Positions 8,192-32,028 of a stretch of 34,714 nt of DNA are shown here, piece by piece (position 1 is the first letter of the stretch; the number at the start of each line of letters is the position of its first letter). The translations under genes and the position numbers were made by a program. Source of the DNA: Calothrix sp. HK-06. Lineage in GTDB: Bacteria > Cyanobacteriota > Cyanobacteriia > Cyanobacteriales > Nostocaceae. The notes beneath the pieces were generated by a model. It was not told the DNA's origin, made no database searches, and worked only from the letters and a program-made list of their open reading frames with translations. The DNA lies in assembly GCF_001904745.1 (NCBI RefSeq), contig NZ_MRCD01000093.1, forward strand, positions 1 to 34,714, written 5' to 3'.

Positions 8192-11100
8192 CTAGGACTG
8201 CGGGTTATGCCAGAATCCCCCAACTTCTAGTTTTCTAACAGTGCTTTCCATCAACGCTGTAGCAAGTATGCTCAATGTTGCGGTATCACTAAAGTAATTA
8301 AGATGATTGCAATCTACTTCATGAATTCGTAGTAGGGATGAGCGCGCGTTATTTACGCTTGTTATACTACTTACCGTTACAGCAATGTCATTTATTTCAC
8401 CAAAGAAGGCTAAGTAGATTGATTTGTCTTTCAGTTTTTGCATTAACCGCTGTAATTTGTTGGTTTCACTTAATATAGATGGCGCCAAGTTATTACCAGC
8501 AATAATTGTATAGGGAATACCTGGGTCGGGACTTGCTGCTAAAGATTTGAGAAAATCTGACCCAGGTTGCATTTGATCGAGGGAAATATCAATTTTCTCT
8601 AGGGAAGCTAGCAAGCTAACCAATATATTCATTGGTAAAGCATTTATGGATATGCTATTTAAGACTAAGGTGAGTGATATCGTTGCAAAATCTTGAATTG
8701 TAGACCAAGGAGAACCTGCATTTGGCGTACCTAACATTAGTAAGTGATTGACAATTTTATTACCACCTTCGCGTTCTATTAACCACCGAGATATTAACCC
8801 ACCCATCGAATGGGCAACGATATGTAATTGTTTACCGTGGTTTTCACCCAAACCTATCGCTTCAAGACGTTGTTTTAATAACCGCGCGTTTTCTTCAATC
8901 GAGGTGTTTATGTTCTCGTAGTCAAAGGCAAGAATTAAATCATACATCTGAGCTAAGGGTTTTTCCTGTTCTGCTACTGTCCAGGTTCCCTTCTGCATTG
9001 CAGGTAACAGATTTTCGGTATCACCAATAATACCGTGGATGAACAAAACTATTTTTTTGGCTTGGGCTACTTGTTTTTTGATTGCAACTAAATCAGTTTC
9101 ATAGCTAACTTGTTGCGAAGCGTTTACCTTTGCTACCGCTAATTGTGGATAGGAGAACTTAAACCCCAGTTTTTCGCTGGCAACTTTTTGGAAGTAAATT
9201 TGGAAAGCACTTTTTATACTGCGTTCTCCTGGTTCGGGTTCAGGGAGACGCTCTAATGTAATTTCGGTTCTTCCGTTACGAGAATAGCCCACTCCCAATG
9301 GTAAATAAAATTCGCCATCGTAAGCAATTGGTATTACTTTTTCTTTTGGCACCAAAGGTGTGTCAACAATTAATTTTAAAGGGTTAGAGCGGGTAACGGT
9401 GGAGATGGTTGCAGCATCAACACCACTTAGTACTAAAGTATTTGCACTTGGCTCAATTCCCCGACTGTTGGTTAACGCAAAAGGTTGACTGTGGGGATTT
9501 TCCCGTAACAGCGGTGGTAAATAATTATTGTTTACATTTCTGCTAGATGGGGAAATACTTGTTAAACGAGCTTCTGCTTGTAAGTGGGGATGAGCTTTTA
9601 AAATGACTCCGGCGCCCAAAGATACCCCATTTCCGGAGTTGGGTATAATCGTAGTTTCCAGAGGACGAATAGTTTTGATTACTACTTGAGTAGCTACCCA
9701 ATCATCGTATTCCTCAACTGATTCATCTAAAATTAAATCGCGCGATTGCCAGCGATTCATTAAACGGTTGAGGGTACTTGTTCGTACACTACGTTGAGTA
9801 TATTTTTTGCGCGGTAAATCGAGTTTATCTTGTTCTAATAATCTGGCATCAAATTCATTGGTGCAAACAATGAGTTTCAAAATATCTTGATACTCTGTAA
9901 CCCCTTGGCACCATAAATCGTCAGGAACGCTGGCAGGAATAGCTCTGCCACCCAACGCCCAAGCTTGTTGCTTAGGTTCAAGTTTGATGTAACCTGCCTC
10001 AAAAAAGCCCGCATTGATCGAAAATTGCTCGGTTAAGTCAAGTAATGCACAATAAAGGGTTTCATCGCTGGTATTTTTCAGCTTGATTTTGAAAGTCGGT
10101 CGGTTCCATTTACCGCTATCATCTTGATAGTAATTAAGGCGAATTTGACTATCTTCTAAAACTTGATTGTTTTGATGAATTTCAAGTTTAATTGCTGAAG
10201 CACTAATTCGACTATTTGCAGGACTTTGTAGTTCGCTCAGATTTGTCCAGCGGGCAATATGTTCGAGACGTTGAACAACTTTGACAGCGCTAGAAAAGCT
10301 ATAATCGGGAATTTGGTTAACTATAGGTACGCCATCCGCAGGTCGAGTAATAATATATTCTCCGTTTAGAGCAACAACTTTAAATTCAGCGGTCTCGCTT
10401 TCGCTAACTTCGCGCACATACACTGAAGATTGCCCACTATTAATATTTTGTAATGCTTGTTTTAATAATTGCACTCCTTCAGAATCACCAATCAAGTGTA
10501 CACCTAATGGCGGCAAAGGTAAACTGGTAATAACGGCTTTGAAAGTTTGTTCTTCGTCTAAATTTGTAATTCCCTCAATTTTAATTTGACTCAGTTGTGG
10601 TAAAACTTCGGTAACTCGCGCTTCTCCAAGTTTATTAGATAGTTTGCGTAATTCTTCAGCTAATGCTGTAATTGGAAACAGTGCCAAATGCATAGTTTCC
10701 TCAGCATCCGGACGAGGTACACCATGTACGGCGCCGCCATCAATTATCCAACCATATTGTTTGTGATACTCAACAGTATAGTATGGTTGGCAATCACGTA
10801 CCGCCCCACCTAGAAATAATTGGTCTAAATCATTACTATCGGTTGCTTCTAATTGCGGTGATTGTTTAACTTTACTGCGTACCAAAGCATTGATACGTTT
10901 AAATAAATCTCGATAGGTAAGACTTCCTTGAGTTTGGCTAAGGGTTTTGGTGAGAAAATGACAAAATGCTCCCCGGTGTTTGCCATCAACTTTATATTCT
11001 TTGGCAGTTTCCGAATTTTGACAAGCTGCGAATAAAATATGCTTACCCCTTGGTAAATTCCAACCTGATGCTTGTCGGTTTAAGGAGCGGATACTTTGAA

Positions 11101-11650
11101 TCTCTTCTGGGGAAAAAATAAAACTATCTAAAGGACGAGAGCGCACATCGGTTGTATATTCACGAACTGCGGTTTCTTGAAACGGGTCTCTCGTTCCTGA
11201 ACCAGAATGACAGCAATCTAAAATCAGGGTAATGTGGGGATTTTTTTGTGCCACCTGGGCGATTAACTTGGCTAATTCCTTATCTGCTAAATCCCAACCT
11301 CCTTCCATACGGCTATCATAACAAACAAGCGTTTCGTTCAATTTTTCCGGTTGAAATTCCCAAAATTCTTTTGGTGCTGGCTCTTGGGAACCATGACCAC
11401 TGTAGTAAAACAAGGCAACATCATTGCTGTTGGCTTGACATAAATGCTCGCGAAAACCGTCTATTATACCTTGACGGGTTGCTTCTGAATCTTTAAGAAT
11501 TTTTAAGTGTAAATTCCATCCTTCTGTTTTTACCCGTGTTTCTAAATATTCTTCTACAGCCATTACATCATTAATGCAGCCCTGGAGCCGACTAACGGGC
11601 GCCGTATAGTTATCAATACCTACCAATAATGCATAAATATTACTAGTCAT
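8192..11650 (-). CDS. metacaspase-like protease fused to an alpha/beta hydrolase
   Basis: A protein of about 1152 residues with two enzymes. The N-terminal ~300 residues are a caspase-family (peptidase C14, clan CD) domain: NIYALLVGIDNY, the histidine loop FYYSGHGS (His86 from this start) and the cysteine loop LILDCCHSGSG (second Cys, Cys147). Both catalytic residues are present. A long central region of mainly beta character (about 300-880) has no domain I can name. The C-terminus is an alpha/beta hydrolase of PGAP1/lipase type: IVLFIHGIIGD (oxyanion region), nucleophile elbow VAHSMGG at about residue 950, and LMLGTPNAGSPW after it. The start is placed at 11650 (MTSNIYALLVG, typical for cyanobacterial caspases); another ATG lies 15 bp upstream. 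Known orthocaspases cut after Arg or Lys; the substrate of the hydrolase is unknown. It is monocistronic, about 400 bp downstream of the DUF3122 gene. Confidence 0.9.
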   Translation of the reverse strand: MTSNIYALLVGIDNYTAPVSRLQGCINDVMAVEEYLETRVKTEGWNLHLKILKDSEATRQGIIDGFREHLCQANSNDVALFYYSGHGSQEPAPKEFWEFQPEKLNETLVCYDSRMEGGWDLADKELAKLIAQVAQKNPHITLILDCCHSGSGTRDPFQETAVREYTTDVRSRPLDSFIFSPEEIQSIRSLNRQASGWNLPRGKHILFAACQNSETAKEYKVDGKHRGAFCHFLTKTLSQTQGSLTYRDLFKRINALVRSKVKQSPQLEATDSNDLDQLFLGGAVRDCQPYYTVEYHKQYGWIIDGGAVHGVPRPDAEETMHLALFPITALAEELRKLSNKLGEARVTEVLPQLSQIKIEGITNLDEEQTFKAVITSLPLPPLGVHLIGDSEGVQLLKQALQNINSGQSSVYVREVSESETAEFKVVALNGEYIITRPADGVPIVNQIPDYSFSSAVKVVQRLEHIARWTNLSELQSPANSRISASAIKLEIHQNNQVLEDSQIRLNYYQDDSGKWNRPTFKIKLKNTSDETLYCALLDLTEQFSINAGFFEAGYIKLEPKQQAWALGGRAIPASVPDDLWCQGVTEYQDILKLIVCTNEFDARLLEQDKLDLPRKKYTQRSVRTSTLNRLMNRWQSRDLILDESVEEYDDWVATQVVIKTIRPLETTIIPNSGNGVSLGAGVILKAHPHLQAEARLTSISPSSRNVNNNYLPPLLRENPHSQPFALTNSRGIEPSANTLVLSGVDAATISTVTRSNPLKLIVDTPLVPKEKVIPIAYDGEFYLPLGVGYSRNGRTEITLERLPEPEPGERSIKSAFQIYFQKVASEKLGFKFSYPQLAVAKVNASQQVSYETDLVAIKKQVAQAKKIVLFIHGIIGDTENLLPAMQKGTWTVAEQEKPLAQMYDLILAFDYENINTSIEENARLLKQRLEAIGLGENHGKQLHIVAHSMGGLISRWLIEREGGNKIVNHLLMLGTPNAGSPWSTIQDFATISLTLVLNSISINALPMNILVSLLASLEKIDISLDQMQPGSDFLKSLAASPDPGIPYTIIAGNNLAPSILSETNKLQRLMQKLKDKSIYLAFFGEINDIAVTVSSITSVNNARSSLLRIHEVDCNHLNYFSDTATLSILATALMESTVRKLEVGGFWHNPQS

Positions 11651-11981
11651 AACTATATATCTCATTTACTACATTCTTCTAGGCGCCATCTATGTCGAGT
11701 TATGCACCAATGATTTGAAAAGTAAGGTAGGTCATAAAAAACACCATTGTTTCATGGCAGAAATACATCCTTCCTTATCACTAAGCTCTGTATTAAATAA
11801 ATACCCTCAGTAACATCGGTCAACTACTATACAATCATATTGGTCAACGGTAGATATCTGCGTACCTTTGTATCACTATCCGGCACCGCATCCTCTAGGT
11901 CTTTGATATCAATATATTTGCATGTAATATTAATTACCAAATCTGTAACTACTCGGTTTTGGCGCCTTTGCGTTGCGTTCG
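11651..11981. other. intergenic region upstream of the metacaspase gene, no gene seen
   Basis: An AT-rich stretch with two GGCGCC sites (11682, 11961). No open frame with coding character, tRNA or clear promoter pair was recognised. The metacaspase promoter must lie here or just upstream, because the DUF3122 gene ends with a hairpin element. Confidence 0.4.
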
Positions 11982-23494: not shown

Positions 23495-24128
23495 TATATA
23501 TTTTATTTAAACCTAAAGATAGATGTAATTTTATTCTGATTTTGAGAAATATAATACCCCTGAATTATAAAAGTTTAATAAAATATTATTATCTAAAAAT
23601 CAGTGTCAAAGATTTGAACTTTGTGCTAACTTTGCGCTAAGATTTTCTGGTTGAGAATCGCAAATATTTTACTCAATGCTCGTTATTTTGCGCGACCTGT
23701 GTTATGCTCTGAAACGTTTTGTCAAGTTAACTTAACCTACTCGTATTATTGTGAGTTAAGTTTGACTGTTAACTATTTCGGCTAAGTCAGTTTTAAGTTT
23801 GTGTGCCTGTTTTTTGAAAAGGGCTGTTTATTAAGGAAAACAACAGCTATGTATTGTACATCTAATCTCAAAACGAATTGTAATTGTCTACTAAGTTATG
23901 TTATTTTACTCCGGCGCCGGAGTAATTAACATAGATGTCTGATGAAAAATACAGAAGTTTACATCTCATACTTCTGTTAGAAATAAGCTTTTTTTACTCC
24001 GCTGTCTGTGGACTCTGTGACTCTGTGGTAAAAATATTTACCATTAATGGCATTTGCATGGATTAGTACTTAGAAAAGCACTCTTCGTGCTTAGTACGAG
24101 TACCTTAAATACACAATTTTTGCGTAAT
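23495..24128. other. 634-bp gene-free region with strong hairpins
   Basis: No protein gene is supported. It contains an inverted repeat ACTTAAC / GTTAAGT (23730-23736 and 23755-23761). A long nearly perfect hairpin at 23897-23933 is centred on ACTCCGGCGCCGGAGT. A second hairpin at 23951-23977 (ACAGAAGT / ACTTCTGT) is followed 11 nt later by seven T residues (23989-23995). The last two together look like the 3' end of a transcript on the plus strand, but no gene precedes them. Confidence 0.5.
23897..23933. repeat. long hairpin with a GGCGCC centre
   Basis: TATGTTATTTTACTCCGGC pairs with GCCGGAGTAATTAACATA, broken only by one bulge and one mismatch. The central 20 bp (TTACTCCGGCGCCGGAGTAA) are perfectly palindromic. 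The hairpin is not adjacent to the end of any recognised gene. Confidence 0.6.
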
Positions 24129-24629
24129 ATGATGTCCAATAATTTGAGTTACAACCAGGTTTATGATGAGATAAACCAGCATAAAGGTAAGTTGCTAACT
24201 CCTTTTCAGCACAAAACTCTGCTCAAGTATCTACAAACAAATTTGCAGCGAGAATATCGTTGTCGAATTGAAATAATGCTACTAGCAGACGCAGGTAAAT
24301 ATCAGAGTCAAATTTGTGAAATTGTCGGTTGTTCGCAAGAAATGGTACGTTATTGGATTGCTATTGCAGAAGCTGGTTTAGCGCACAAATGGAATTCACG
24401 ACCAATTGGTAGACTCAAAACTGTCAACAATCAGTTTTTAGTACGTTTGCAAGAACTTGTAAAACATAGTCCGCACGAATACGGTTATGCATTTGGGTGT
24501 TGGACAGCACAATGGTTAAGTAAGCATCTTGCTCAAGAATTTGGCATTAAAGTCAGCGACCGTCATATTAATCGTTTGCTTAAAAAAATGGGACTTTCTA
24601 CAAAATCTACTAGTACTGTATGTGATTAA
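24129..24629 (+). CDS. HTH-only protein related to the N-terminus of IS630-type transposases
   Basis: About 166 residues. Residues about 40-85 (REYRCRIEIMLLADAGKYQS, QICEIVGCSQEMVRYWI) form a first helix-turn-helix. Residues about 125-160 (GYAFGCWTAQWLSKHLAQEF, DRHINRLLKKMGLS) form the second winged HTH, as in IS630-family transposases and Tc1-like DNA-binding halves. The catalytic DDE half is absent: the frame closes with TAA soon after the second HTH, and 25 bp later the convergent CHAT gene ends. No terminal inverted repeats or target duplication were found. It is therefore either a truncated transposase or a domesticated DNA-binding regulator, and the intact frame favours the latter slightly. 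The start is the first of two adjacent ATGs (24129, 24132); a TTG at 24054 extends the frame but adds nothing recognisable. Confidence 0.75.
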   Translation: MMSNNLSYNQVYDEINQHKGKLLTPFQHKTLLKYLQTNLQREYRCRIEIMLLADAGKYQSQICEIVGCSQEMVRYWIAIAEAGLAHKWNSRPIGRLKTVNNQFLVRLQELVKHSPHEYGYAFGCWTAQWLSKHLAQEFGIKVSDRHINRLLKKMGLSTKSTSTVCD

Positions 24630-24654: not shown

Positions 24655-27255
24655 TTACAACCAATTACCTATTAATACATATGCTGCCCAATGGGTTGGC
24701 GCCTTATAATTAGGATGGTTGAGAAGTTTTAACTGTGCTTGTTGTAGCGCACTTGCTCTACTAAGTTTTGCGTCTTTCAATTTGCGATAAAATTCACCTA
24801 CAAATATTGCTGTTGGTTCATCTTCGATTTGCCATAATGAAGCAATTGTACTACGGGCGCCTGCTTTAATCGCGACTCCAGCTAAACCAAGAGCAGCACG
24901 TTTATCACCTTCGGCAGTTTGGCAAGCACTTAAAACAAGTAATTGTAGTGCTTCAAGTTGGGTTTGGTCACGACTACGCAATATATTATCGAATTCACGG
25001 ACGTTAATAGGTCCATCTGCTGCCAAAATAAACGTATTGTCTGCACGCGAACTAAATTGACCGTGAGTGGCAAGATGAACGATGTTAAAAGGTATATCGT
25101 GAACTAAATTGTTTAATTCTTTACTAGTAAACTGCTGATTTAGCAATGTTTTGGTTTTAATGCCAGCTTGGGTAATTTGCTCTAACTCTAATTTTATTCC
25201 AGGTAAAGAAGCAAATTTTTTATATGGATATGGGGGTTCGATTAAACCAGCAGTTAAAGCGTTTAGCTTTTGTCTTTGCAATGGTTGAGGGTCTAAAAGC
25301 TGTAAAGACGCATTCATTGCAATTGCATATTTTTCAACCAAGTAATTTTTTCCATCAAAGAGCGCTGAGAATGGTATGCTACCCAATACAGTGTCAGGAA
25401 TAAATACAAGAGTATTAACACCATTAGGCGCCAAATTAGGTTCTAACTGTTTAACTAGCCATGTATAAAGCTTTTGCGATTGAATTTTTAAGCTTTCAGT
25501 TGCTGAAGGGTCGATAAAATCGTGTCTGAGTTGGGCAACTGTTTTCTCTACTTCAGCTTGACTTATTTTAGTTGTATAGAGTTTTAGCTGTTGATTGGGA
25601 ATTTTGACTATAACTTGGAGTGTGTCGGTAAGAATAATAGGATAAAGTATAGCTGTATTCGGATTGTCTTTATCTACAACTTTATCTAAAACAACTTTTT
25701 TGCCTTGTAAACAAGCTTCTTTAAAAAAGTTATCGAGTTCGGCAAGTTGCAAAGCTTCGATATGCTGACGTGCTTTATCAAGAACTTTCGGGTCTGGGCG
25801 CCCTGAAGTTTGCGATTCTAGAAGTAGTGCGACCAATTGACGATATACTGGTTCTACGCTCTCTTTGAAACTAAACTGTACATCAGTATTCACCGCTACT
25901 AAGTCACTACGAAGTTTTGATAGCGTTTCTACTGCTGCATCATATGACGCAATGGCGCCTTTAATATCAAATTGTATACGTAACAATCGACCAAGCTGCC
26001 ACTGTAATTGATACGTAATCACATCATCTACATTTTCTGCTTGCGCTATTACCAAAGCCTGTTGAGTTAATTTTAGCGCTTCTGGATACTGTCGCGTTTT
26101 TTCATACAACTCTCCCATCTCACTTAATGCGTATGCATATGCATGATTATCATTTATATCGCGCGCAATTTGAATAGCAGTCGCAAGTACAGCATAAGCG
26201 CGCTGCGTATTACGGTCTATTTGCATTAAACGTTCTGCAAAGTTAATTCGCGCGTAAATAGCTGTGCGACTTGGTGGAAGTTGTTGAAGTAGTGGTTCAA
26301 TTACAGAGATTAAGCTTGTAGCTTCTGTATATTTTTTGGCTTGTATTAATAAACTTACATGATTCAGTAATGCTTCGACTTTAATTTGCGATAATGGAGA
26401 TATATCAACGGTTTGTTTGTAATATTCAATAGCTTGCTGTGATTTTCGTTCTGAGAGTGCATGATTTCCTAAACTAAATAAACTTTTGCCAACTTCAGTA
26501 TTATTATTTAAACCACGAGCAACTTTTAAACTTTGTTCTAAAATTATGCGTGATTGCTTTAAATCCCCCACTAATTGCAGAGCATCACCTAGCGAACGCA
26601 AACCCGCTAATTTCTCTATCGAATCTGGTTGTGAGTCAAATGCCGCATTTACTTCTTTGAGAAGTTTAACCGCGTTATAATAGTAACCCAATATTTGTAG
26701 TGACTGTGCTTGGTGAACACGCGCTTTCAAAGTACCGTGTTTATTACCTGCTTTCTCAAATACTTTTTCTGCTTGTCTCCATGTCGAGAGTGCTGCATTA
26801 GTTTGCCCTGTAGAAAATAATAGGCGCCCTTGTATGATTAAAGTTTGGGCTAACAGGTTTTTATTAGCTGGTTCTGCTCCTTGTAAACGCAAACTAGTTG
26901 TTAGCGCTTCAGATGCCAACTTCCAATTACCAAGCTGCTGATATGCTAAAGATAAGTTGCTCAAGGTGGCAGCTTGTTTTAAAGCATCACCTTTTTGTTG
27001 ATACTCTTGTACTGCTTGCTGTAATATTTGCACGGCTTCTGAATATCTGCCGACATCATATAATAGTTTGCCTTGGTCAATTTGAGATTTTTGGTTTTGA
27101 GTTATTGGGGTGATATTTTGTGTATGATGCGGGTTTGCAAGACTTGGTAGTGCAAACCCACATATTAATAAACTCATTAATATCAAATCTCGTCTAATCC
27201 ACAATTTTAAAATGGATTGTAAATAATGGAGAAATAAATACCATTTTCTTGCCAC
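24655..27255 (-). CDS. secreted TPR-CHAT protease
   Basis: An 866-residue protein. A basic N-terminus and hydrophobic stretch (LILMSLLICGFALPSLANP, cleavage plausible after ALPSLA) suggest export. Residues about 55-450 are TPR repeats (for example LLYDVGRYSEAVQILQQAV, ATLSNLSLAYQQLGNWKLAS). The C-terminal CHAT domain (about 580-866) has the dyad in VHLATHG (His731) and LSACQTAEG (Cys778), followed by GVAIKAGARSTIASLW and the conserved end THWAAYVLIGNW. Known CHAT proteases of this kind (HetF-type, separase-like, gasdermin-activating and Craspase types) cut specific partner proteins. The start codon lies inside the tpsB-like gene (49-bp overlap), so translation is probably coupled to it. An alternative ATG is at 27177. 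The overlap makes this protein a likely functional partner of the TPS exporter. Confidence 0.9.
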   Translation of the reverse strand: MARKWYLFLHYLQSILKLWIRRDLILMSLLICGFALPSLANPHHTQNITPITQNQKSQIDQGKLLYDVGRYSEAVQILQQAVQEYQQKGDALKQAATLSNLSLAYQQLGNWKLASEALTTSLRLQGAEPANKNLLAQTLIIQGRLLFSTGQTNAALSTWRQAEKVFEKAGNKHGTLKARVHQAQSLQILGYYYNAVKLLKEVNAAFDSQPDSIEKLAGLRSLGDALQLVGDLKQSRIILEQSLKVARGLNNNTEVGKSLFSLGNHALSERKSQQAIEYYKQTVDISPLSQIKVEALLNHVSLLIQAKKYTEATSLISVIEPLLQQLPPSRTAIYARINFAERLMQIDRNTQRAYAVLATAIQIARDINDNHAYAYALSEMGELYEKTRQYPEALKLTQQALVIAQAENVDDVITYQLQWQLGRLLRIQFDIKGAIASYDAAVETLSKLRSDLVAVNTDVQFSFKESVEPVYRQLVALLLESQTSGRPDPKVLDKARQHIEALQLAELDNFFKEACLQGKKVVLDKVVDKDNPNTAILYPIILTDTLQVIVKIPNQQLKLYTTKISQAEVEKTVAQLRHDFIDPSATESLKIQSQKLYTWLVKQLEPNLAPNGVNTLVFIPDTVLGSIPFSALFDGKNYLVEKYAIAMNASLQLLDPQPLQRQKLNALTAGLIEPPYPYKKFASLPGIKLELEQITQAGIKTKTLLNQQFTSKELNNLVHDIPFNIVHLATHGQFSSRADNTFILAADGPINVREFDNILRSRDQTQLEALQLLVLSACQTAEGDKRAALGLAGVAIKAGARSTIASLWQIEDEPTAIFVGEFYRKLKDAKLSRASALQQAQLKLLNHPNYKAPTHWAAYVLIGNWL

Positions 27256-29003
27256 GTGTTTTTCCTTGAGTCTATAGACACTAAAGGAATACCCCAGTCT
27301 ATTTGTGCATTTAACTGGCTACCCAACTGTAATCGTAATCCTAAACCTGTTGATACTAAAGTACTTGTTTCGGGATTTGGAGTATCACCTTTATTCCATG
27401 ATGTACCGACATCAATAAAAGGTACTACTTGTAATACTGATTGTGACTGACGCTGGCGCCATATTGGTAAGCGAACTTCTGCACTAGCAAAAAATCCGTT
27501 GTCAGTAAGTAGTGCGTCTTGACGATATCCTCTAACGCTTTGCTGTCCACCTAAACCAAATTGTTCGAGTGCAACAAGTGGCCTGTCAGCAAACTGTAAG
27601 TCACCACGTAAAAGCAATAAAGTATCAGGAGCAAGTAACCGTACCCACTGTGCTTGTCCTCTCCATGCATAAAACCTACTATCGGCAGAATCGGCCTTAA
27701 TTGTAGAATTAAGTGCATCGAGTCCAATACTAAACTGTGAACGTGCGGCAAATACCTGCTGACTATCACGTTGCGTCCATTCTTGAATAAACCGTAATGC
27801 TGTTACACTAGTTCTACCATTAGAATCGGCACCAACAGCAGGAAATGGAATTGGGCCATCCGGGTCGTTATTTAATAAGCTAGCTTGACTTTCGCGTCGA
27901 GTTAGTGCAAGTCCTACTGCTAACTCACGATTTGGTTTTTGAATTATGGGTTGACGTAGTGTAACTTCGTAATATTTTGAATAAGATTGAATATCAAGCG
28001 TGTTAAAGGGACGTTCGATGACGTTGTTGTCAGATGTTCCGTAACTAAAGGCAAAAGTGCCGTTGCGAGGATTAATTGGGACTGTATAGTTAAAATCAAA
28101 AGAGTTGCTACCATCGGTATTTGTATAGCTACCCCTCAAACTATCACCCCATCCTAAAAGGTTTGCTTCGCTTAATTGCACAGAGCGTCTAAAACTACCT
28201 ACACTTGGTGAACGTCCATTATCAATACTAAACTGGGCATCAAATGTCTTAGCTTCACGCACCTGGACTTCAAGTGTACTAACACCAGGACGAGTACCTG
28301 CAGCTAGTTCTGCAGAAAGATTTTGAATTAACGGGTTCAACTGAAGAACTTGCAACGCTTCGAGCAAACGTTCTCTATTTAAAGGTTTTCTAGTGGCAAT
28401 TTCTAAACGACTTCGTACATAACCAGCATTGAGTCTGCGTGTACCGTTTACCTTAATCTCTTCGAGCGAACCTTCAATAACTCGAATTTCAACCACCCCA
28501 TCCTTAAGCTTTTGTGGTGGTATATATGCTCCACTCGTAATATAACCTCTGTCAACGTAATACTTTGTAATTTCCGAGCGAACCTGAAATAGGTCGGCAA
28601 TTGTAATCGGACGGTTTCTATACTTTTCTGTAATTTTATCAAAATCTTTTGCGCTAAATACAGTACTACCAGTCACGTTGAATTTTGTTACTTTTATTGT
28701 CTGCGGGATATCCCCAGGCTGATTTTGTTCGGGTGCTGTCGGTGGATTTATGTCACTGCCTGGTAACAATTGGTCGGGAGGTGGCAACTGTGGTGGCGCC
28801 GTTGGTTCGGGCAAAGGTCTATCAGATGGTGGCTTTATCTCTGGACGCGGGAAATCTGGATTTTGCTGTCTACCTGGTAAATCTTCTGGTCTTATTACCT
28901 GTGCCTTCAGTGGTTCTACTGAATTAATTACAGCTATAACAACAAGGTATAAACAAATGTAAAATCGATGAATACGACTGTTTAAAAGCAATTTATAAAA
29001 CAT
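27207..29003 (-). CDS. TpsB-type outer-membrane transporter (ShlB/FhaC/HecB family)
   Basis: A 598-residue outer-membrane protein of two-partner secretion. An N-terminal signal segment (FYICLYLVVIAVINS) is followed by a proline-rich linker (about 38-100). A POTRA module comes next (about 103-255: KVTKFNVTGSTVFSAKDF, IRVIEGSLEEIKVNG), then the beta barrel. The loop-6 signature QSVRGYR is near residue 505 and the terminal residue is Phe, as required for barrel assembly. Its substrate is most likely the TpsA-type protein encoded divergently at 29704. The TPR-CHAT gene overlaps its 3' end by 49 bp. Length and motifs are intact. Confidence 0.92.
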   Translation of the reverse strand: MFYKLLLNSRIHRFYICLYLVVIAVINSVEPLKAQVIRPEDLPGRQQNPDFPRPEIKPPSDRPLPEPTAPPQLPPPDQLLPGSDINPPTAPEQNQPGDIPQTIKVTKFNVTGSTVFSAKDFDKITEKYRNRPITIADLFQVRSEITKYYVDRGYITSGAYIPPQKLKDGVVEIRVIEGSLEEIKVNGTRRLNAGYVRSRLEIATRKPLNRERLLEALQVLQLNPLIQNLSAELAAGTRPGVSTLEVQVREAKTFDAQFSIDNGRSPSVGSFRRSVQLSEANLLGWGDSLRGSYTNTDGSNSFDFNYTVPINPRNGTFAFSYGTSDNNVIERPFNTLDIQSYSKYYEVTLRQPIIQKPNRELAVGLALTRRESQASLLNNDPDGPIPFPAVGADSNGRTSVTALRFIQEWTQRDSQQVFAARSQFSIGLDALNSTIKADSADSRFYAWRGQAQWVRLLAPDTLLLLRGDLQFADRPLVALEQFGLGGQQSVRGYRQDALLTDNGFFASAEVRLPIWRQRQSQSVLQVVPFIDVGTSWNKGDTPNPETSTLVSTGLGLRLQLGSQLNAQIDWGIPLVSIDSRKNTWQENGIYFSIIYNPF

Positions 29004-29314: not shown

Positions 29315-29650
29315 ATGAGCAATTCACAACTAGAATCGAACACATACCCTGACGCTGGTTTTGGTACACTTCCAGAGGATGCCACTAAATTGCAGCAATT
29401 GCAACATGATATTTTGCAAGAATTTATGAAACTCTTAAATAACTCTCAAATGGATGAGATAGTTAAGGGTTATGGTTTGACGGCTGATAAAGTGATTAAA
29501 TTTGAGGCTGTTATTAACTTGAATAAAATACAAAGCATGGACGTAGCACTTAGCGACCAAGAAATGCAGCAAAGCTTAAAACAAATTCCAGGAGAGGAAT
29601 TAAAGCTATTTAGTTGCTGTTTATGCAATGGTCGGTGCTGCCCTTGCTGA
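29315..29650 (+). CDS. small protein with Cys-rich CCxC-xxx-CCxC tail, possible peptide precursor or metal-binding protein
   Basis: A 111-residue protein I cannot assign to a family. Residues about 20-100 have no cysteine and look helical (ATKLQQLQHDILQEFMKLLN, MDEIVKGYGLTADKVIKF, LSDQEMQQSLKQIPGEELKL). The last eleven residues are CCLCNGRCCPC: six cysteines as two CCxC units separated by NGR. A long acidic helical 'leader' with a compact Cys-rich C-terminal 'core' is the layout of ribosomally made and modified peptides, but also of small metal-binding proteins. No modification enzyme was found in the window. It has no signal peptide. It is divergent from the TpsB-CHAT pair and 53 bp before tpsA, with a hairpin between, so co-transcription with tpsA is likely. 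The ATG has only a weak purine-rich upstream region (AGAAAGATA). Confidence 0.75.
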   Translation: MSNSQLESNTYPDAGFGTLPEDATKLQQLQHDILQEFMKLLNNSQMDEIVKGYGLTADKVIKFEAVINLNKIQSMDVALSDQEMQQSLKQIPGEELKLFSCCLCNGRCCPC

Positions 29651-29703: not shown

Positions 29704-32028
29704 GTGGTTACACAAATGTTACATCCGTGCTATCACTATAAGTTACATTGTGCAAGAGTTATATCTCTTGCGGCAACATTGCAAATAAGTGTACTATCTA
29801 ATACGTGTGTAGCTCAAATTACTCCAGATAATACTCTACCGACAAATTCGCGCGTTTTGGGTCAAGGTGAGACCAAAGTTATAGAAGGTGGAACGCAAGC
29901 TGGAAAAAACTTATTTCACAGTTTTGAAGAATTCTCTGTTTTGGGTGGACAAACAGCTTACTTTAATAATTCTGTAAATATTGAAAACATAATTACTAGA
30001 GTTACAGGCAAGTCTAGCTCTGATATTGATGGTACACTTCGCAGTAATGGTACAGCAAATTTCTTTCTAATCAATCCTAACGGTATTATATTCGGCGCCA
30101 ATGCCTTATTAGATATTGGAGGCTCATTTGTTGGTACCACAGCTAGTAGTATAAAATTTGAGGATGGTAGCAAATATAGTGCCGTAGAACCTCAAACACC
30201 TTTACTTACAATAAGTACACCAATTGGTTTACAATTTGGTACCAATCCTGCATCAATTCGTAATCAATCTCAAGCAAGTCCGAACAGCGCAAAAGGCTAT
30301 TTTGATAATCCTGAAGGTTTGCGGGTTTCACCTGGCAAAACTTTGGCATTAATAGGTGGTGATATTTATTTAGAGTCAGGAAATTTAACAGCACCATTAG
30401 GTCAAATAGAACTTGGAAGCGTTGGAAGTAACAGTTTTGTTAATTTAATACCAACAAGTGAAGATTGGATTTTTGGTTATAAAGATGTTAATAATTTTAG
30501 AAACATACAAATTACAAGCAAAAATCTTTTAAATTCATCGAATATAACAACAAGTGGTCAAAGTGGTAGTGGGAATATTCATTTTATTGGCAACATTATA
30601 GAAATATTTGGTGTTGGTGGTATTTTTAACTTAACTTTAGGTGACAAAAATGCTGGTGATATTGTTATCGATGCAGATAAACTCATACTTAAAGATGGCG
30701 CCCAAGTGCTAGCTGGTACAGTTGGAAAAGGTACAGGAGGAAATTTAACTATAAATGCTTCTAATATAGATGTGCTTGGTGGCTCATATACTGAATTAAA
30801 TTATTTTGCAATTAGTACAATATCTAGTACAACATACCAAGTTGGAAACGCAGGAAATGTTAACATTAATACTGGAAAATTACGAGTTAAAGATGGAGGA
30901 AATATAGTAGTTGAATCAAGCGGTATAAATACACAAGAATCATCATTTAAAGATGTGTTACCCGCAACAGGTAATGCTGGCAATTTGACTATTAATGCTA
31001 CACAGTTAATAGAAGTAACAGGTAAATCACCTGACAATAATAGTAATTTATCTGCTACCACATTAGGTTCTGGAAATGCTGGGAAATTGACTGTTAATAC
31101 AGGTAAACTGATAGTTAATAATGGTGCAGAAATAAAGGTAGGTAGTAGAGTCGAAACTAATAGTAGTGGAAAATATCTTGGAGACAGATTTAATTTAGGT
31201 AAAGCAGGTAACTTAGATATAAGAGCAAATTCCATACTCATTGATAATCAAGGCAAAATTACATCCGAGACAGATTTAGGGCAAGGTGGTAATATTACCT
31301 TGCAAACACAATTATTACAAATGCGTCGTAATAGTTTAATATCTACCAGTGCAGGTAAAATACAATCAAGCGGTGATGGTGGTAACATTATAATTAATGC
31401 TCGTAACGGTTTTATAGTTGCGGCAAGAAATGAAAATAATGATATTATAGCGAATGGGTTTAGCGGTTCTGGTGGTAAGATTACAATTGACACGAATGGT
31501 ATATTAGGTATCGAAGTACTTAATCGAGAAGATTTAATACGCAAGATAGGTAGTAACGACCCATTTCAAATCGACCCACAAAAGCTTTCTACAAGTAACA
31601 TTTCTGCAATTTCTCAAACTAATGCGAATTTAGACGGTATAGTAAGCATTACCACTCCACATACTGATAGTAGCAGCGGTTTAGTTAATTTACCAGAAAA
31701 ACCTAATGTCCCAACAATAACCCAAGCTTGTAAAGCAGACACTACTAGGCAAAACAAATTCTCTATAGTTGGACGCAGAGGACTAGCTACAAATCCAACA
31801 GAATTTTTAAGAAACACTACAATACCCGATACCGATTGGATTTCTCTAGAAAGTTCTACAGTGCAATATCCAAATCAACAATCTCAAATCACTACATATA
31901 ATAACAATAATAATTCAGTTATAGAAGCACAAGCATGGAAATTAGATAAAGATGGAAGTATTATCTTAGTAAGTACTGCACCAACAGTTATACATCACTC
32001 TAAAGCATTTGTGGCGCCTGCATGTTAA
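29704..32028 (+). CDS. TpsA-type secreted protein with filamentous-haemagglutinin N-terminal domain
   Basis: A 774-residue exoprotein of two-partner secretion. A signal region (VISLAATLQISVLSNTCVA, cleavage plausible before QITPD) is followed by the TPS secretion domain (about 40-280) with the hallmark FFLINPNGIIFGANA (NPNG at 124-127) and GGSFVGTTAS. The rest is Gly/Asn/Ile-rich repeats of the right-handed beta-helix type (GNAGNLTINATQL, GGNITLQTQLLQM). The C-terminus has a Cys in ITQACKADT and a final APAC, a pattern seen in many cyanobacterial members. The partner transporter is the divergent gene at 27207. The start is either GTG 29704 or ATG 29716; neither has a clear ribosome-binding site, which fits translation coupled to the small gene upstream. 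Probable role is a surface or extracellular adhesin; ligand unknown. Confidence 0.9.
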   Translation: MVTQMLHPCYHYKLHCARVISLAATLQISVLSNTCVAQITPDNTLPTNSRVLGQGETKVIEGGTQAGKNLFHSFEEFSVLGGQTAYFNNSVNIENIITRVTGKSSSDIDGTLRSNGTANFFLINPNGIIFGANALLDIGGSFVGTTASSIKFEDGSKYSAVEPQTPLLTISTPIGLQFGTNPASIRNQSQASPNSAKGYFDNPEGLRVSPGKTLALIGGDIYLESGNLTAPLGQIELGSVGSNSFVNLIPTSEDWIFGYKDVNNFRNIQITSKNLLNSSNITTSGQSGSGNIHFIGNIIEIFGVGGIFNLTLGDKNAGDIVIDADKLILKDGAQVLAGTVGKGTGGNLTINASNIDVLGGSYTELNYFAISTISSTTYQVGNAGNVNINTGKLRVKDGGNIVVESSGINTQESSFKDVLPATGNAGNLTINATQLIEVTGKSPDNNSNLSATTLGSGNAGKLTVNTGKLIVNNGAEIKVGSRVETNSSGKYLGDRFNLGKAGNLDIRANSILIDNQGKITSETDLGQGGNITLQTQLLQMRRNSLISTSAGKIQSSGDGGNIIINARNGFIVAARNENNDIIANGFSGSGGKITIDTNGILGIEVLNREDLIRKIGSNDPFQIDPQKLSTSNISAISQTNANLDGIVSITTPHTDSSSGLVNLPEKPNVPTITQACKADTTRQNKFSIVGRRGLATNPTEFLRNTTIPDTDWISLESSTVQYPNQQSQITTYNNNNNSVIEAQAWKLDKDGSIILVSTAPTVIHHSKAFVAPAC

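Follow-up and report, generated by a model that had tools for sequence, protein, structure and literature searches.

Cys-tailed, precursor-like peptides encoded before tpsA in filamentous cyanobacteria and the association of their cores with a section of TpsA

Across cyanobacterial genera, the type of the short C-terminal core in a family of small, precursor-like peptides is statistically associated with residues 281–520 of the TpsA exoprotein that is usually encoded downstream. Within a core type the core is constrained, whereas between types it is replaced. We put at about even the chance that the peptide is an allele-matched, Cys-rich specificity peptide of its TpsA exoprotein that acts outside the cytoplasm.

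The family was traced from Calothrix sp. HK-06. The analyzed window, a stretch of 34,714 nucleotides, is an entire contig of a 9.99-Mb genome. Its peptide gene (29315..29650, plus strand; ATG start) encodes 111 residues upstream of tpsA. The leader part, residues 1–100 (29315..29614, plus strand), contains no Cys, and the core or tail, CCLCNGRCCPC at residues 101–111 (29615..29647, plus strand), holds six Cys in the last 11 residues, with NGR flanked by two CCxC units. The first-pass annotation had described this open reading frame (ORF) and its place between a divergent TpsB/CHAT pair and tpsA; its coordinates, length, six terminal Cys, and position were all confirmed. The divergent genes encode a TpsB transporter (27207..29003, minus strand; Pfam ShlB/POTRA) and a CHAT-TPR protein (24655..27255, minus strand; Pfam CHAT). 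The usual partner gene, tpsA (29704..32028, plus strand), encodes a TPS exoprotein that matches Pfam PF05860 at residues 37–288, and the section that tracks core type, columns 281–520 of the TpsA alignment, corresponds to 30559..31278 on the same strand. The listed GTG start of tpsA follows the peptide stop codon by 53 bases, and a search between the two genes found no terminator-like site. Elsewhere in the window, positions 24054–24629, adjoining the CHAT gene, hold an HTH-domain fragment (HTH_32, HTH_33), presumably a transposase piece, and positions 8192–11665 encode a 1157-aa caspase-like protein (PADLOC caspase model, E 9.9e-46).

A peptide family with a conserved leader and a variable core

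A search with the single window protein matched 24 of 100 genomes, its own genome included. With a profile built from 25 members, matches were obtained in 107 of the 217 genomes that were examined from the window's taxonomic family. Among the matches listed, most genomes held up to four places, with six in a contaminated genome. In a phylum-wide sample, 14 of 386 genomes were matched, and 13 of these belong to the same taxonomic family as the window; one phylum match (G511) was judged spurious, as it covers 33 positions within a 402-aa frame at E 9.5e-4. The regions compared below comprise the places from the single-protein search and 59 usable regions among the profile matches listed, locus L144 being unusable as a 100-base piece. 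Close homologues occur in Calothrix sp. FI2-JRJ7, Dulcicalothrix desertica PCC 7102, Calothrix sp. PCC 7716, and Calothrix elsteri CCALA 953, and homologues at 94, 78, and 52% identity retain both the Cys tail and the position before tpsA.

Known-family searches with the 25 members returned no Pfam, NCBIfam, or PHROG model over its cut-off where cut-offs are given, the Pfam results having been inspected singly for 21 of them. The nearest library model was Tag1_C (cut-off 27 bits), which scored 23.5 bits on one member's leader and 17.5 bits in a second of the 25. DUF7683 (E 0.065, 14 of 27 bits), SEA (17.4 versus 26.4), and UPF0758_N (17.1 versus 27.1) also stayed below cut-off, and the scattered NCBIfam and PHROG matches had best E-values of 0.0024 and 0.0068. 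The best PDB match had an E-value of 0.2, and the window protein had neither a phage nor a PADLOC match. As the AlphaFold model, made from 5 sequences, was too poor (mean pLDDT 51), a structure search was set aside. The literature listings and abstract openings contain no account of this peptide family. Thus, as far as these sources reach, the family is undescribed, in keeping with the first-pass view of the ORF as an undescribed component.

The family leader spans about 75 residues with the consensus LQQLQ.EI.....L.NS.....L.KYG.....V..F....DL.KI. An origin from Nif11 or NHLP leaders was considered and rejected: hhalign gave probabilities of 1.1 and 0.3%, respectively, with a Nif11 set of 20 rows, one of which (L205) was misread, and no NCBIfam model passed. 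Separately, one contig of the window genome (C194; L211, L221, L228) carries several NHLP-leader precursors that end in TRCCW or TKCCWG, together with a LanC-family enzyme.

The C-terminal part of the family differs sharply in composition from the rest. Across 119 members, Cys makes up 15.8% of the last 26 residues versus 1.1% elsewhere, and Trp (8.7-fold), Pro (3.8-fold), and Gly (2.1-fold) are enriched in the same stretch. The 119 members carry 107 distinct tails, which simple sequence patterns sort into 34 PCP...GC loops, 21 C..NG..C cores (the window's among them), 19 other multi-Cys cores, 10 CWS...V.C, 8 CC.D..G, and 27 others; some cores contain just two Cys, set in a loop or hairpin of Trp, Pro, and Gly. 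At least four Cys in the last 12 residues were found in 36 of the 119 members versus 5 of 3135 non-family ORFs of at least 60 aa from the fetched regions, and one of these five is an unrecognised relative. Because five of 3135 control ORFs reach at least four Cys and the window ORF has six, its tail is not a product of chance.

Codon comparison points to a protein under selection at 29315–29650. In the window peptide's own group (n=4), dN/dS was 0.24 for the leader and 0.09 for the core, values that rest on few codons. The core value was below the leader value in all five groups compared, each of a single core type: 0.08 versus 0.38 in 17 slot-1 genes (see below), and 0.18 versus 0.53, 0.20 versus 0.52, and 0.31 versus 0.42 in the others, with just 16–61 pooled synonymous sites behind the core estimate in four of the five. 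Synonymous change was present in both leader and core. These ratios indicate that the core is the selected, functional part of the peptide. A Cys-attenuator ORF was rejected, because the leader is conserved at the protein level and synonymous changes in the core are frequent.

Association of core type with TpsA residues 281–520

Most members are paired with a TpsA gene. A TpsA gene lies downstream on the same strand in 112 of the 119 members, at a median gap of 325 bp, and 115 of the 119 have at least two Cys within the last 26 residues, so that the Cys tail and the TPS context seen in the window are conserved together. The exceptions are four members with fewer than two tail Cys and seven without TpsA; two of the seven lie at a contig end, and the other five lack a nearby TpsA, one of them having a 56-residue TpsA fragment close by. 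TpsA-like genes are themselves abundant (13 to 99 matching stretches per genome in six genomes of filamentous cyanobacteria). The 96 paired TpsAs group in a single clade (support 0.87) that also takes in 5 of the 20 unpaired sequences sampled. Those five sequences represent three genes, and two of the three have a small upstream ORF that the HMM missed, in which the leader is eroded and the core is of the form PCPT...PQGC. Paired TpsAs carry a C-terminal Cys, and a disulfide between this residue and the peptide was considered; it was dropped as not specific because unpaired TpsAs also end in Cys.

Other neighbours recur less. TpsB lies near 5 of 28 loci (its cluster in 8 of 88 regions) and the window-type CHAT cluster near 7 of 28, so neither is a constant part, and the CHAT gene beside the window peptide is incidental. 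At the cluster level, the TPR type is found in 18 of 88 regions. Immediately upstream, 28 of 88 regions have a sugar-type ABC permease gene, named by eye; these are the regions that share synteny with a gene read as aldehyde-deformylating oxygenase (ADO). Radical SAM genes, also named by eye, were present as a MoaA-like type in 23 of 88 regions and as another type in 10. These and the other recurring neighbours go with shared synteny. The 88 regions showed no recurring receptor or immunity-like gene and, beyond synteny, no recurring downstream partner.

The replacement of cores is most clearly seen in a chromosomal slot that adjoins the ADO gene in 28 regions. At 15 tandem loci of one genus, probably Nostoc, the first slot holds the core C[IV]PCPSTGSPLGCNC or a near form, with a mean core identity of 0.91. 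In the second slot of the same loci, the cores are unrelated (identity 0.41, a figure that gaps in the alignment make too high), and the leaders are 0.39 identical. Across these loci, identity reaches 0.94 for the neighbour gene and 0.81 for the first TpsA. Second-slot peptides already differ between pairs whose neighbour genes are 98–100% identical. The slot-2 TpsAs of five close genomes are about 0.95 identical in the C-terminal part (641–785) and about 0.57 identical over 281–520.

Matching was then evaluated with one member per TpsA, on 96 TpsAs. Within the genus of the tandem loci, same-core TpsAs were 0.73 identical over 281–520 versus 0.54 for different-core TpsAs (0 of 2000 label shuffles), whereas the C-terminus gave 0.82 versus 0.80 (438 of 2000). 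The same-core effect also appeared within this genus at residues 1–280 (0 of 2000) and 521–640 (14 of 2000), as linkage would give.

Across genera, the signal is narrower. Four TpsAs of another genus were 0.565 identical over 281–520 to same-core TpsAs versus 0.453 to others, with 0.70 versus 0.68 in the TPS domain and 0.48 versus 0.48 at the C-terminus. For three TpsAs with PVPGYP cores, the same-core and other values over 281–520 were 0.60 and 0.55, 0.59 and 0.55, and 0.61 and 0.54, and the TPS-domain differences were at most 0.01 in size after rounding. All seven TpsAs tested in this way were thus closer to same-core TpsAs over 281–520 (gains of 0.04 to 0.12; TPS-domain gains of −0.002 to 0.03). 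Single pairs varied: L053/L116 reached 0.68 over 281–520 versus a mean of 0.50 and a maximum of 0.58 with other partners (TPS domain 0.81 versus 0.78), and L035/L096 was weak, at 0.579 versus a mean of 0.557 and a maximum of 0.624.

The correlation analysis covered the 3443 of 3538 cross-genus pairs with full data. With leader, TPS-domain, late, and C-terminal identity held, core similarity correlated with identity over 281–520 at a partial r of 0.24, and with identity in the TPS domain at −0.14 when the rest was held. Without the leader held, the value for 281–520 was 0.271, above all 500 within-genus tail shuffles (mean 0.098, maximum 0.203). Examined stretch by stretch along TpsA, the excess lay mainly at 281–520 (0 to 5 of 300 shuffles reached the observed value), and no cross-genus excess was found at 121–280 or 521–640. 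When the slot-1 type was removed, the excess at 281–520 remained, weaker at 481–520 (17 of 300), and residues 41–75 were also in excess (1 of 300). These partial correlations are modest, and the alleles are related. DNA distance alone is insufficient for the pattern, because the TPS domain separates the peptide gene from the section encoding 281–520.

Export, possible roles, and alternative explanations

N-terminal export signals, called by hydropathy and inspection, are present in 18 of the 119 members, a count that excludes two in-frame N-terminal extensions (L032, L108). Of these, 14 are Sec-like, several of them resembling the TpsA signal peptide and first residues, and 4 are Tat-like with TRR(N/D)F. 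These signals suggest that, for part of the family, the core acts outside the cytoplasm. The other 101 members, the window's included, lack such a signal but may be exported as well. At L088:8818–14001 (minus strand), seven signal-bearing members in tandem are followed by a signal-less member and then by TpsA. The cores of this array are varied and mostly hairpin-like; one member is cut at the region edge, and the profile missed four of the seven exported members, the other three being within the 119. An exported member is also carried by the mobilizable plasmid pNsp_i of Nostoc sp. ATCC 53789 (L141 / L190), where it adjoins a tyrosine recombinase gene and has no intact TpsA. This member is a mosaic, with a front that resembles other loci and a last 97 bp that match the core region from another genome at 92% identity. 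As further observations, the Tat-like members L140:7286–8368, L139:7290–7712, and L056:233–685 all belong to genus g51, one genome of which is 38% contaminated, and the member at L050:8395–8868 is fused behind a signal peptide and an additional segment that we take to resemble the N-terminus of a phosphate-binding protein.

In the reading that we favour, the gene would produce a precursor-like peptide with a leader domain and a short, diversifying, Cys-rich core, and the peptide would be exported. Its Cys residues would staple it through disulfides or other links, and the core would be the working end, fitted to residues 281–520 of the downstream-encoded TpsA, just past the TPS domain. The peptide may bind, cap, or be recognised by this section of its own TpsA, and each strain would thereby hold a matched peptide–adhesin pair for self-recognition or adhesin specificity. 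The paired TpsAs are taken to be adhesins, with 281–520 as part of a putative beta-helix.

Several other accounts bear on the same data. The peptide might be an allele-specific helper of TpsA assembly or maturation, comparable to BcpO of Burkholderia bcpAIOB, that acts in the periplasm or outer membrane and not as a ligand. Both the TpsA partnership and the association with a TpsA section would fit such a role, and BcpO alleles 10–16 mostly vary with the C-terminus of the cognate BcpA and with BcpI (PMC3415462). We nevertheless regard a helper as rather unlikely: the window protein has no N-terminal hydrophobic stretch and, with the lipobox judged by eye, no lipoprotein signal, and seven exported cores before one TpsA look more like ligand diversity. 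Exchange of DNA in blocks offers another account, in which cassettes made up of the peptide gene and the first two thirds of tpsA are exchanged and the peptide itself serves an unrelated role; such exchange might couple the core to the TpsA section without contact. It would suit the within-genus association, which extends to TpsA residues 1–280, and the mosaic member of pNsp_i. Across genera, however, the association is weak or absent at the intervening residues 121–280, which disfavours simple linkage; we judge this account unlikely. The tail could also form a metal- or cofactor-binding site, its diversity reflecting drift among Cys-rich solutions. The high Cys content would agree with this, as would the Tat-like signals in four members, since Tat signals suit folded or cofactor-bearing cargo. 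It is nonetheless improbable, given that some cores carry just two Cys, that the whole core is constrained within a type, and that an association with TpsA 281–520 is not predicted.

Two suggestions of the first-pass annotation concern processing of the peptide. For a modified-peptide (RiPP) precursor, the layout held up: one short ORF combines a leader with a variable, apparently selected core rich in Cys and Trp, resembling in this the prochlorosins (PMC10783134). A C39-type peptidase family, which is not specific, occurs in 27 of 27 peptide-positive genomes, and radical SAM genes lie near some loci, although these were taken as synteny. The enzymatic side of the suggestion was not supported. 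No modification enzyme recurred beyond synteny in the 88 regions; MNIO was present in 8, YcaO in 15, and LanC in 21 of the 27 genomes, each being absent somewhere, and searches of the window's own genome found neither MNIO nor YcaO. Moreover, the leader is unrelated to Nif11 or NHLP leaders, the Sec and Tat members need no RiPP export route, and a link between core and TpsA is not predicted. We therefore find it unlikely that the core is modified by a remotely encoded enzyme, cleaved, and exported, with TpsA as a mere operon neighbour. The divergent CHAT-TPR gene of the window had prompted the idea that a CHAT protease cleaves the peptide and frees its tail; as just 7 of 28 loci have the CHAT cluster nearby and just 5 have TpsB, this idea was abandoned and is, in our view, highly improbable.

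Implications and comparison with known systems

Taken further, the specificity-peptide reading would describe a peptide–adhesin recognition system of multicellular cyanobacteria, in which a stapled peptide uses the post-TPS section of TpsA as a dedicated docking site. We offer this wider proposal tentatively and consider it possible, though less likely than the specificity role itself. If it is true, cores would travel as short cassettes, by plasmid as well, and would replace one another at a reserved slot. Strains would thereby alter their self/non-self or partner-specific surface identities with no need for toxin or immunity genes. Filamentous cyanobacteria have many TpsA-like genes, and a regular peptide partner whose core tracks TpsA provides a candidate, testable interaction site. 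Such tracking may help filaments and mats to recognise strains or choose partners. In addition, the analysis adds a peptide family whose leader the searched profile libraries fail to recognise.

Among known systems, the PF05860 exoproteins of filamentous cyanobacteria share with the present loci a TpsA partner that ends in Cys; the peptide, unlike these exoproteins at large, goes with one TpsA clade. In contact-dependent inhibition (CDI; CdiA/BcpA), the variable part of BcpA is its C-terminal ~350 aa, and BcpI is its partner (PMC3415462), whereas in the slot-2 TpsAs of five close genomes the C-terminus is the constant part. The same paper reports that BcpO of Burkholderia bcpAIOB is needed for autoaggregation and full CDI, and that one BcpO allele group consists of predicted lipoproteins with near-identical mature parts. 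BcpO resembles the peptide, compared by description, as a small ORF in a TPS locus with some alleles that covary with BcpA. Prochlorosins and other Nif11/NHLP peptides share a conserved leader, a hypervariable short Cys core, and a cyanobacterial host; prochlorosin cores vary, and their precursors may lie apart from a single promiscuous enzyme (PMC10783134). In contrast to the prochlorosins, the window family has an unrelated leader and no constant LanC-family enzyme and is tied to TpsA. The nearest precedent is BcpO in function and the prochlorosins in layout, and the peptide departs from both in tested features.
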